A stretch of DNA of 64,000 bases, taken from contig CM049408.1 of NCBI GenBank assembly GCA_026929865.2, forward strand, positions 434,001-498,000. Direction: 5' to 3'. Positions 19,401 through 61,400 of this stretch are shown piece after piece. Numbering within the stretch: the first letter of the stretch is position 1; each line of letters starts with the position of its first letter. Made by a program: the position numbers and the translations under genes. Origin of the DNA: Hyperoplus lanceolatus (Eukaryota > Chordata > Actinopteri > Uranoscopiformes > Ammodytidae). Under the pieces are notes generated by a model. That model saw only the letters and a list, made by a program, of their open reading frames with translations, did no database searches and was not told the origin of the DNA.

Positions 19401-22400
19401 CATCCTAGATTGCCATAGTCATCAATGGGTTAAATATATGCATAATTTGGAACAAGTCACATACAGTATCTCACAAAAGATACACCTCACATTTCTCCAA
19501 CTATTTCATTATATCTTTTCATGGGACAACACTGAAGAAATGACTCTTTGATACAATGTAAAGTAGTCAGTGTACAGCTTATATAACAGTGTAAATTTAC
19601 TGTTCCCTCAAAATAACTCGCATTCATGTCTAACCCAAAGTGTCGATATTTTGTGGGGCCACCATTCATTTCCAGCACTGCCTTAACCCTCTTGGGCATG
19701 GAGTTCACCAGAGCTTCACAGGTTGCCACTGGAATCCTCTTCCATTCATTCATGATGACATCACGGAGCTAGTGGATATTAGAGACCTTGCGCTACTCCA
19801 CCTTCCGTTTGAGGATACCCCACAGATGCTCAATAGGGTTTAGGTCTGGAGACATGCTTGGCCAGTCCATCACCTTTACCCTCAGCTTCTTTAGCAAGGC
19901 AGTGGTCATCTTGTAGGTGTGTTTGGGGTCGTTATCATGTTGAAATACTGCCCTGCAGCCCAGTTTACGAAAGTTGAGTGCATGTGCTCAGCGTCATATC
20001 TATTTTTATTTATTTTATTGGTTTATTTCAGGGACATTGCACACTAATCAACATTCAAAATGTAAGTGAGCCAGAGTTAGCCTAAGAGGCTAGTTTTCAT
20101 CTGTTGTCCCCTGGCCAGATATGTAAAAGGCAACCTAAAATTACAGAAATAAAATGCATGTATAAACAAAGATTAAAAAACAACATAGTCAACTCAGAAA
20201 ATACAGTAACACATAGTAAGAACGAATTGACAGACAATGACAAACAAACAATAAAATAAGCAGACACTAAAACACAGCGTATATTAAACATTATAGGAAA
20301 GTGCACAAAACTGTAGATTAGAGCAAGACAAACACCTACAATAAAACACATAAACAGCAGCATAACGCACAAACATGCAGCACAAACATAAACAGCAGCA
20401 TAAAGCACAAACAAGCAGCACAAACATGCAGCACAAACATATACAATTAGACACTCACATGAACAACACAGGACAGGAGCACACAAGAGACAAGCAAGCA
20501 GAACAAAACAGTTACTAAGAAGTCGGCAGGAGAAGCAAATGCAGTCCTAGTGTGTACACAATTGATTACTAATGAGCCATATTTTTAGCTGTCCTGAAAA
20601 GGGGCGGTAAGAACTAATTTCTCTTATGTGAGCTGGTAGTGAGTTCCATTCCTGTGACGCTATAACTGAGAATGCCGAGTGGCTAAAGGCACTTTTTCTA
20701 AAGGGTACTACACAGTCTACCCGGGACGAGCCTCTGGTTGTCCGGTTTGAATTTGACCTCTGAGTGATACATTGTTGAAGAGGTGGGGGGGCTTTGTTGT
20801 GCAATATTTTAAAAATAAGGCAAAGATTTGCATACTTTATTAGGTTGTCCCAGCTCAGAAGTTTATACTTTCTTAAAATAAGACAATGGTGATAGGTGTT
20901 TGACTTCCGGTCCAAGACCTTCAGGGTTTGCTTATACAGTGTTTCATGTGTTTTAAGTGTTGTTTTATTGGCTTATGCAAAGCTGGTCAAACAGTATGTG
21001 AAATGAGACATTATCATAGCATGCATATAAATCTTGGCTGCATCAATTGTCATTGAATTTCTGATGAAGCAAAAATTTGATAAGTTATACTTAACCCTGT
21101 GACTAACTTTTTTTACATGAGATTTGAAGGACAGTTGAGTCGATTAGGAGGCCTAGGTATTTGAACTCAGAGACAACTTCTAGTTTTACTCCTGACAGCA
21201 GTATGGCTGGGTCAGCAGTAAGGCATGATTGAATTAGTCAAGTTGAGATGCGGTTCAATGCATTGGTGAGTGTTGCTGCAGCCTGAAGTTTAGTTCTGCT
21301 ATGTGTAAAAATCACAGCGTCATCAGCGTAAAGCTGAACCTCTACATCAGAACACACAGAGGGCAAGTCATTTATGTAAGGATTGAATAGAAGTGGACCT
21401 AGTATTGACCCTTGTGGAACACCAGTTAGTGTATCCAGCGCAGAAGATTTTTGATTATTGACATTCACACACTGGGTTCTAAAAATGATTAATAATAATA
21501 ATTGATTGGATTGATATAGCGCTTTTCAAGGTACTCAAAGCGCTTTACTGGGTTCCAGGTTCCATTCGTTCACACACAGTCATACCGGTGGTGGTAAACT
21601 ACGATAGTAGCCACAGTTGCCCTGGGGCAGACTGACAGAAGCGAGGCTGCCATTCCGCGCCATCGGCCCCTCCGACCACCACCTCAAACATACAGCAATC
21701 ATACACATTCACACGAGGCAAGGTGGGTGAAGTGTCTTGCCCAGGGACACAACGACCATGACACAAGTGGCCGGGCGGGGATCGAACCGCCAACCCTAGG
21801 GTCGTTCTTTAAATATGACTCTGACCACTTGAGGGCGTTATTGGAGAAACTGAATGAGGAGAGTTTGGAAATGAGTACCTTATGATTTACTGTGTCAAAA
21901 GCTTTTCTCAGGTCTAAGAATACAGCCCCAACAGTACCTCCCTTGTCCATCATAGACTTAACCTTTTCAATTAAGAGGCAGTTGGCAGTGTCTGTATAAT
22001 GATTGGCTCTAAAACCAAATTGCATGGGATGCAGTGAGAAGGGGCTGTTGGTTAAATGAGAAATTAGTTGTTCTGCTACCCACTTCTCTGCCACCTTGGA
22101 CACTACGGGCAAGATGCTGATTGGTCTGTAATTATATCCGGAGGTTGGCTTTGGAAAAGAGACGTATGTGCTGCCAGCATTGCTGCAGGTCTTGAAGGGG
22201 TGGGGGCTCAACCTGTCAGTGCTCAGACCATATGCCGCACACTGCATCATACTTGTCTGCATGGCTGTCGTCCCAGAAGAAAATCTATTCTAAAGATGAT
22301 ACAAAAGAAACCCCACAGACAAGCAGACTAAGGACATGGATCACTGGAACCATCTCTATAGTCCGACGAGACCAAGATAAACTTATTTGGTTCAGATGGT

Positions 22401-58400: not shown

Positions 58401-61400
58401 TAAATCGAGCAGGTAAACACAATCAGCGCCAAATTGAGTGATGACATTGGACCAATGTAATGAGAGATCTTTAGGGAAAAAATTGGGCGGCACTAGATAA
58501 AACAGAGATAAAACCAGGTCAGTTTAGGCCAACCAAAGTGAACCCATACAGGTCAGACATGCCAAGAGGAAAGAAAATCTCAGAGGATCTCAGGAATAGA
58601 GTTGTGATGTTGCACATTTGTCTGGGGACAGCTATAATTAAAAAAAAGTTTGAGCTCCATCGGTCCACCGTGGGGCCAATCATCTACAAATGGAGAGCTT
58701 TATGAGTGACTGAACATCTGCCTAGAAATGGACTTCCTTCAAAAATATCCAAAAGTGCCACAAGAAAAGTGATTTTTCTGGTAAAAGCCAACCCAAACAT
58801 TACATCTGGAGATTTGAAGACCTCTTTTGCAGCATCTGGGACAGATGTGCATGGTTCCACAATAAGAAGAAAACTCACGTCAACATGGCTTACATGGGAG
58901 GGTTGCTGAAGAAGCCTCCAATCTCAAAAAAGAACACAACTGCTTGTCACAACTTTGCCAGAGAGCACCTGGAATACCTTCTTTTGGAAGTCTATTCTGT
59001 GGACAGATTAGTCAAAAATTTTACTTTTTGGTCATAACCAAAACCACCATGTTTAGGCAAAAAAACAACTCTGCGTACCACCAAAATAACCTCCCAAGTG
59101 AAGAATAGTGGTGGCAAATGGTCTGAAAATCTCCAATTGTAATGTTTGGGTTGGCCTTTACCAGAAAAATCACTTTTCTTGTGGCACTTGTGGATATTTT
59201 TTAGGGAAGTCCACTTCTAGGCAGATGTTCAGTCACTCATAAAGCTCTCCATTTGTAGATGATCTGCCTCACGGTGGACCAATGGAGCTCAAACTTTTTT
59301 TTAATTATAGCTGTCCCCAGACAAGTGCGCAACATCACAACTTTATTCCTGAGATCCTCTGAGATTTTCTTTCCTCTTGGCATGTCTGACCTGTATGGGT
59401 TCACTTTGGTGGGCCTAAATTGACCTGGTTTTATCTCTGTTATATCTAGTGCCGCCCAATTTCTTTCCTAAAGATCTCTCATTACATTGGTCCATTTCAT
59501 CACTCAATTTGGCACACCTGATTATTTTTTCCTGCTCGATTTAAGCAATGCAGCACAGGGTTCACAAACTTTTGCATATACAATAGATGGCAAATAATTT
59601 GTTTTATCTGTTTAAACAATTGATTCCCGGAAAAGAAAAATGTTGAATTGATAAACAAACATCTGTTATTTCATATAAAAAATACTGGTATTGATAAAAA
59701 ATTAATGATTAATGGTTAAACTGAATAAAATTCCAAAATGCTCAAGGGGTTCACATACTTTCAAGCAGCACTGTATATGTGTTGGGAGCAGAGCAGGCGA
59801 GGAGAGAGCGAGACTGAGGCAGGTGAACAGCCTGGGGATGAGGGGAGAGTCACAACCAGGGACTGTCAGTGTTGTGGATGTGGGACCTGGAGCTGCCATC
59901 GATGGGAAGGCTTGACATATCAGGCAAAGAGGACGGTAAAAAAGAGATTCTGTCATAAGTGGCGATTTTCCAGTTTTAGTCACTCAATCTGCAGCTATTG
60001 AAACCATTTTTCCATATCACTCATTGCAGCAGCCTCAGCCTCTCGCCTGCTCAACTTCCAAAACAGGTAGTTTCTCCTCTGTGTATTCTGATTCAAATTG
60101 TGAATCAGACCACTATGACTCGACTGAGTGAGTAAACAAATTGGTCGCAAAGTTTGATGTGCTGACATGGTCGCATATGCCTTTTTTTCCTCTGGTTCTC
60201 TGTCTCTCTCTCACGGTCACGTGACTCGCTTGTCCGCACGTAACTTATCTTGCACATTATTTTAGTCTGTTGTTAGTCTGAAGTGTTTTCAGACAATACG
60301 ATTAGTTGTACATCTTCCAGAAGGTTTTCAAAACACCCAGCAAACGCACCTCTCCCCCTCCTACTCGGAACCAGCTATAAGCTAAACTATCAGGTGAGGG
60401 AGGGGCAGAGCGAAGCGCACGGCCGAAACAAGAGTTCGCTGGATTTAAAAGCCTGCATGTCACGGTGTGACATGATAGTTTTATTACGATTATGTTTTCA
60501 TGATTGAGGGAAGCCGTAATAGCAATCAAAATTGAAATTCAAGTTATTGCCCAGCTCTATAAGAAGGATGACTTAAATTGGGAGAGGTTTTAAATTGCTA
60601 AATTTATTCTCAATCTTTATATTTTTGGCGCTGGTGATTTTCCTTTGGGGCTGAATAAATCCTCTTCCCATTTTTCTATGCAGGAAAAACCCTATGTACA
60701 CTCAACAAAAATATAAACGCAACACTTTTGTTTTTGCTCCCATTTTTCATGAGATGGACTTAAAGATCTAAAATTCATTCCAGATACACAATTGTACCAT
60801 TTCTCTCAAACATTGTTCACAAATCTGTCTAAATGTGTGATAGTGAGCACTTCTGCTTTGCTGAGATAATCCATCCCACCTCACAGGTGTGCCACATCAA
60901 GATGCTGATCTGACATCATGATTAGTGCACAGGTGTGCCTTAGACTGTCGACAATAAAAGGCCACCCTGAAATGTGCAGTTTTGTCTCACAGCAAAATGC
61001 CACAGATGCCACAAGCATTGAGGGAGCGTGCAATTGGCATGCTGACAGCAGGAATGTCAACCAGATCTGTTGCTCGTGCATTGAATGTTCATTTCTCCAC
61101 CATAAGCCGTCTCCAGCAACTTCGCACAGCCATTGAAGAGGAGTGGACCAACATTCCACAGGCCACAATTGACAATCTGATAAACTCTATGCGAAGAAGA
61201 TGTGTTGCACTTCATGAGGCAAATGGTGGTCACACCAGATACTGACTGGTTCTGAGTCCCCAGACCCCCAATAAAGCAAAAAAATGCACATTTCAGAGTG
61301 GCCTTTTATTGTGGACAGTCTAAGGCACACCTGTGCACTAATCATGATGTCAGATCAGCATCTTGATGTGGCACACCTGTGAGGTGGGATGGATTATCTC

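Follow-up and report, generated by a model that had tools for sequence, protein, structure and literature searches.

Rearranged mariner sublineages of miniature inverted-repeat transposable elements (MITEs) are known from Drosophila (viz. Dromar7, 11, 28, and 36), and the passages devoted to them by the describing authors call their origin elusive (PMC4161770). For another Drosophila transposon, Galileo, the sections concerned with its structure propose that DNA is exchanged between copies (PMC3573991), and in one of the models presented in the part of the Pack-TIR study dealing with gap filling inside terminal inverted repeat (TIR) transposons, the product of a template switch then transposes (PMC8277862). 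In the present work, we have analysed a 64 kb stretch of the Hyperoplus lanceolatus genome (hereafter the window), which harbours five Tc1-type elements of fold-back structure belonging to four families, referred to here by their termini as CAGTGCTGCTTG, CAGTCCCCTCC, CAGTCCCGGAC, and CAGTATCTCAC, and we have searched the same genome (807 Mb in 527 contigs) for their relatives. Our analyses indicate that each of the first three families is very probably a non-autonomous Tc1 sublineage that descends from one rearranged founder and has spread to TA sites, and that CAGTATCTCAC is probably a founder-derived fold-back sublineage likewise. No report of fold-back Tc1 families in fish was found, by title or abstract start, among the open-access papers listed.

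The arms of these elements were located by comparison of the window with itself, in which all inverted matches have E values of about 1e-18 or better. Inverted arms are present in all five of the elements that a preliminary description had presented as fold-back copies, viz. 45040-46517 of CAGTCCCGGAC (173 bp at 92% identity and 377 bp at 82%), 55353-56662 of CAGTCCCCTCC (441 bp, 95%), 58192-59773 and 29543-32245 of CAGTGCTGCTTG (655 bp at 89% in the former; 121 bp at 82% and 60 bp at 90% in the latter), and 19464-26105 of CAGTATCTCAC (102 bp at 94% and 83 bp at 96%). The division into four separate families is likewise upheld, the four having different ends and no mutual DNA match in the window self-search. 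Their common anatomy is that one end of the transposase gene is present twice, in inverted orientation, as arms around a short middle, the repeated part being the 3' part in CAGTCCCCTCC, CAGTCCCGGAC, and CAGTATCTCAC and the 5' part in CAGTGCTGCTTG. No tandem array was found in the arms of the window elements.

The orientation of the transposase pieces was determined by tblastn with the two transposase pieces of an ordinary element of the window (38319-39916) as a yardstick. In the CCCGGAC and CCCCTCC elements (CAGTCCCGGAC and CAGTCCCCTCC, respectively) the C-terminal piece reads antisense in the left arm and sense in the right-hand part, while in the ATCTCAC element (CAGTATCTCAC) it reads antisense in the left arm, part of which is matched, inverted, by the right arm. 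The N-terminal HTH_SB match of the CAGTGCTGCTTG element 58192-59773 is sense in the left arm and antisense in the right, and these orientations confirm the earlier assignment of a doubled C-terminal part to three families and a doubled N-terminal part to CAGTGCTGCTTG. Judged by transposase orientation rather than by alignment to a parent, both arms come from the same parental end, in CAGTATCTCAC only partly so. The cleanest single case of a doubled transposase end is the CAGTCCCCTCC copy L069, whose two arms contain the same DDE_3 stretch (profile 92-145), on the minus strand of one and the plus strand of the other, at closely similar E values (7.1e-6 and 7.5e-6). The DDE and helix-turn-helix (HTH) transposase homology of the Tc1/mariner superfamily is present in the elements, the domains being partial and the Pfam scores of the fold-back pieces lying below the curated cut-offs. 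The sense part starts at about yardstick residue 51 in CAGTCCCGGAC and about residue 112 in CAGTCCCCTCC, and these different starting points in the gene fit separate births of the two forms.

First-look searches of the genome gave 143 candidates for CAGTCCCGGAC, 1303 for CAGTCCCCTCC, 1857 for CAGTGCTGCTTG, and 2619 for CAGTATCTCAC, and the best 40 were scored in each family. For CAGTGCTGCTTG, every one of the 40 places scored (window included; best 40 of 1857) has a match that runs across the loop and into both arms, covering these in part or in full. For CAGTCCCCTCC, both arms are present in 35 of 39 non-window places and one arm in the remaining 4, among the matches listed (best 40 of 1303). 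For CAGTCCCGGAC, we have grouped the rows among the matches listed (best 40 of 143) into 38 places, of which the window copy is one; 25 of the 38 fetched places contain the turn-round junction, as detected with a 40-base probe spanning it at no more than 10 mismatches, while the reversed probe that served as control never had fewer than 17 mismatches. In all three of these families one rearrangement is common to the amplified copies. Complete fold-back copies measure approximately 1.49 to 1.66 kb. The ten fetched CAGTGCTGCTTG copies are flanked by TA on both sides, as are most fetched CAGTCCCCTCC copies (left 12/12, right 11/12), and the copies of both sets occupy different positions with different short flanks; within the window, TA is found on both sides of three of the five copies, the other two each being without one end. 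Six of the 10 fetched CAGTGCTGCTTG relatives begin with CAGTGTCGTGCG, and all 10 show a divergence of 10 to 11% from the window copy; the presence of several end variants among these copies means that the ends vary within one fold-back lineage. A further CAGTCCCCTCC fold-back (L044 3157-4942) was encountered by chance in flanking DNA fetched for another family.

Assembly artefacts or collapsed inverted duplicates are an extremely improbable source of these elements, since identical structures are met with at many positions; the many places that share a structure have different short flanks, the divergence between arms is 2 to 8%, and in two families the diagnostic sites are consistent. The recurrence of the architecture of the window copy at many other places is also what points to one founder per family, and with one amplified founder per family the crowding of fold-back copies in 64 kb needs no high birth rate. 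The preliminary description had read this crowding as the mark of a general process and not of a family trait. For three families this does not hold, their architecture being shared genome-wide, while a recurring process remains the appropriate description at the level of founders. If fold-backs arose repeatedly, copy by copy, from ordinary elements, it would be natural that several families are affected, from either end; however, the junctions and loops that are common within each of the three families indicate one founder per family, and arm-specific sites are common to many copies, so that this course of events is contradicted for three families and is very unlikely overall, though it could still hold for CAGTATCTCAC, should the turn points of its fold-back copies prove to differ. 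Five independent births were rejected for the same three families on the grounds of their genome-wide architecture and of the single form shared by the two CAGTGCTGCTTG copies of the window. The five window copies represent at most four births, and the founders number at least three, derived from opposite gene ends and differing in their turn points.

The manner in which a founder may have been born is suggested by the turn, whose loop measures 113 nt in L002, 180 nt in L059, and 297 nt in the window CAGTGCTGCTTG copy. In L002, a CAGTCCCGGAC copy, the inverted 3' end runs inward, 222 bp are skipped, and after the turn the sense sequence starts from 113 nt further in and continues out to the 3' end, the sense orientation of the loop being taken from the yardstick tblastn and our own reading of the letters. 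Template switching fits this anatomy. In the birth step that we infer, repair synthesis would copy inward from one end, for example while filling an excision gap, until the polymerase halts and, 113 to 297 nt before the halt point, resumes on the opposite strand; synthesis would then run back out to the same end, with the result that an inverted copy replaces the other end. Both outer tips would be the same working end, so that transposase supplied by relatives could move the founder, which could thereby spread to many TA sites. Recombination between the arms of one copy can continue once the lineage has been amplified. An identical end product would arise from two nearby insertions in opposite orientation, followed by deletion of their inner ends and mobilisation of the outer pair as one element, a route that departs from template switching in the birth step only. 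Insertions into or beside such elements are indeed seen here, but two insertions and one deletion would be needed in each family and short loops of 113, 180, and 297 nt are not specially predicted, for which reasons we consider inverted neighbours a possible though rather doubtful source. No full-length parent was recognised with the yardstick pieces in the window and in L039-L047, no search aimed at parents having been made.

Truncated CAGTCCCGGAC places were considered as the ordinary parent and rejected. The eight that were compared have nothing in common beyond the arm, save that L035 and L037 are duplicates and that a small part of the loop is present in both L010 and L024. When nine truncated places were fetched with more flanking DNA, another arm piece came to light in four (L041, L045, L046, and L047). 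The case of L041, which is the wider fetch of L030 and has its other arm piece about 2.3 kb off, is uncertain. In L046 the wider fetch covers the junction, between inserts, of L031, a place scored as junction-less. Six single-arm places (L023, L025, L030, L032, L035, and L037) end within 24 bp of one another (reference 1049-1072), adjoining the arm/loop boundary, and their flanks are unrelated; as L035 and L037 are near-identical, the six comprise five independent cases.

The later history of the arms was followed in 12 fetched CAGTCCCCTCC copies (of 40 scored, all with both arms), in 21 of the 38 CAGTCCCGGAC places (chosen near full length, plus L016 and L022), and in 10 fetched CAGTGCTGCTTG copies together with the window copy (of 40 scored). 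In CAGTCCCCTCC, the left arms differ by 3.0% and the right arms by 3.3% between copies, and left and right arms within a copy by 5.4%; a copy's own arms are sisters in the tree in none of the 12 cases, and 33 columns separate left from right arms in at least 75% of the 12 copies on each side. These arm-specific columns and the order of the divergences imply that the copies go back to one founder, the arms of which had already diverged when the main burst began. The order is opposite in CAGTCCCGGAC, where divergence is 4.7% within a copy vs. 6.6 and 5.9% between copies. Own arms are sisters in 12 of the 21 CAGTCCCGGAC copies. Over the whole set, a copy's own arms share 6.5 derived states per 500 sites, vs. 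1.9 shared with the arms of other copies (6.9 vs. 2.1 without CpG-type sites); first rank falls to 14 of the 21, and the observed value is attained in 0 of 10000 permutations. The simplest reading of these CAGTCCCGGAC results is gene conversion between arms, with the qualification that sublineages are left in that set, and a polishing artefact would hardly have spared CAGTCCCCTCC.

In CAGTGCTGCTTG, sister arms occur in the window copy only (1/11), the observed value is reached by 2 of 10000 permutations for all 11 copies (first rank in 4/11) and by 23 of 10000 without the window copy, and for all 12 CAGTCCCCTCC copies it is reached by 0 of 10000; sublineage mixing probably explains much of these whole-set values in both families. 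Typing by 10 diagnostic columns from five copies identifies two individual events in CAGTGCTGCTTG. The outer right arm of L049 is of the left type, i.e., converted, and L054 has a clean reciprocal exchange, relative to the loop, between arm columns 428 and 620, which is a crossover between the arms of one element.

Several points weigh against the interpretation developed above. The queries were mostly fold-backs, and the counts accordingly lean toward fold-back matches; the junction is absent from the fetched stretch in 13 of the 38 CAGTCCCGGAC places, which are single-arm or middle-less copies; and with the left arm of CAGTATCTCAC as query, both arms were found at only 1 of 38 non-window places among the matches listed (C18:4780236-4781787), in a search that also missed the short right arm of the window copy itself. 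That one end was replaced by the other is read from transposase orientation. With regard to the arms, the permutation test attains the observed value 5152 times in 10000 for the seven closely related CAGTGCTGCTTG copies and 145 times in 10000 for CAGTCCCCTCC once its two divergent copies are left out, which speaks against arm exchange as a general feature. Arm conversion as a general rule, which these two tests do not carry, was rejected, and we conclude that arm recombination after birth is strong in CAGTCCCGGAC and slight in the others, save for the one exchange and the one conversion in CAGTGCTGCTTG. The wider proposition, that several distinct Tc1 families have independently become fold-back, that this is now their main high-copy form, and that it is kept near the usual Tc1 length, is put forward tentatively, as it is rather less probable than its alternatives.

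The individual features of the window are listed in Table 1. The weakest fold-back case is the CAGTATCTCAC copy, in which the right arm is short and some 6 kb of DNA with reverse-transcriptase genes separates the two parts of the element; the matches in this intervening DNA are by our own naming of the Ty3/gypsy type. The second CAGTGCTGCTTG copy (29541-32246) repeats the fold-back form of 58192-59773 and is oppositely oriented; it has lost most of one arm, holds approximately 1.55 kb of inserted DNA (about 30055-31601), and is without its right terminus, the final approximately 22 bp being absent. The CAGTCCCCTCC copy (55353-56661) has no right terminus either, the outermost 83 bp of the right arm having been lost.

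Table 1. Tc1-type elements of the window and their parts.
Feature	Position	Strand	Basis and remarks
CAGTATCTCAC, left arm	19464..19957	-	antisense C-terminal transposase; inverted matches to 25911-26093; tblastn at 19948-19799
CAGTATCTCAC, DNA between arms	19958..25910	.	minus-strand gag-type protease, reverse transcriptase, RNase H (Pfam)
CAGTATCTCAC, short right arm	25911..26105	+	terminal GTGAGATACTG and flanking TA; self-search
CAGTGCTGCTTG, second fold-back	29541..32246	-	alignment to 58190-59775 and to L049
Ordinary Tc1 (yardstick)	38319..39916	+	200-bp TIRs, one decayed transposase
CAGTCCCGGAC, left arm	45040..45650	-	inverted 3' (C-terminal) end
CAGTCCCGGAC, middle	45651..46016	+	turn-round junction and sense catalytic region
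CAGTCCCGGAC, right arm	46017..46517	+	without inner segment of about 64 bp
CAGTCCCCTCC, left arm	55353..56013	-	inverted C-terminal end
CAGTCCCCTCC, middle	56014..56193	+	position inferred from arm pairs and genome copies
CAGTCCCCTCC, right arm	56194..56661	+	lacks about 100 bp internally and the outermost 83 bp, compared with genome copies
CAGTGCTGCTTG, left arm	58192..58822	+	5' end with sense HTH_SB
CAGTGCTGCTTG, loop (297 bp)	58823..59119	+	weak HTH_Tnp_Tc3_2 match
CAGTGCTGCTTG, right arm	59120..59773	-	inverted 5' end with antisense HTH_SB
Short element	60699..61564	.	285-bp TIRs at 98%; not counted as fold-back event

Two remaining elements, 38319-39916 and 60699-61564, had been called ordinary earlier. 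The former is an ordinary Tc1 with one decayed transposase, and the long TIRs of the latter resemble those of a full-length relative (L040 7599-9209), in which TIRs of 287 bp (97.6%) surround transposase pieces. Judged on this one relative, long TIRs look normal for the family of 60699-61564, and its candidacy as a sixth fold-back was rejected on this ground. An inverted pair (60107-60514 and 63209-63627, 72%) brackets 60699-61564. Beside the fold-back elements, a minus-strand open frame of 377 amino acids with a strong reverse-transcriptase match (54260-55393) overlaps the left end of the CAGTCCCCTCC element, and a 628-bp direct repeat (3673-4300 and 18807-19433, 97%), to which pieces at 27918-28099, 33634-33868, and 35972-36342 are related, has its second copy end about 30 bp to the left of the ATCTCAC element. 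Elsewhere in the window, 40989-41368 is a 380-bp self-inverted repeat of about 70% identity, perhaps an old hairpin element, and 6924-10117 contains plus-strand endonuclease and reverse-transcriptase matches in two overlapping open frames resembling a long interspersed nuclear element (LINE).

What appeared as a local cluster becomes a countable pattern of independent founders in several families, some from each end, each of which was then amplified. The families provide replicate cases for the birth of founders, the effect of long arms on transposition, and the pace of arm conversion or crossover, and transcribed copies would be expected to form long hairpins, which bears on small-RNA silencing. 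If the fold-back has in fact become the main form of these families, this would suggest that inverted arms are favoured, with the arms continuing to recombine within each copy.

The phenomenon is real and of a kind already known in Drosophila mariner; what is new here is the occurrence of both directions of replacement in one genome, the nearly full length of the products, and the measured exchange between arms. In the sections of PMC8277862 on Pack-TIR gap filling and FoSTeST, template switching takes place inside a TIR transposon, as proposed here, with the difference that Pack-TIR elements capture other sequence whereas the present elements would copy their own other end. The Galileo 2RT copies of Drosophila mojavensis, in their published structural account, resemble the present elements in having taken internal sequence, inverted, into their terminal repeats; Galileo is there assigned to the P-element superfamily; its target duplications are of 7 bp, and some of its TIRs contain tandem repeats (PMC3573991). 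The 7-bp duplication and tandem repeats of the Galileo/Foldback type were not found here, whereas the TA target sites of Tc1/mariner were, and unlike Galileo and Foldback the present elements combine these sites with a Tc1-type transposase and window arms that hold no tandem array. The closest likeness is to the mariner sublineages of Drosophila as they are characterized in the relevant part of PMC4161770: an inverted copy of one end takes the place of the other, so that the TIRs are unusually long, and each sublineage originates from a single copy and is amplified as non-autonomous elements. In all seven Drosophila cases covered there it was the 5' part that took the place of the 3' part, and the MITE sublineages measure about 0.46 to 1 kb, whereas in the present genome the 3' end was kept in three of the four families and the products measure about 1.49 to 1.66 kb.

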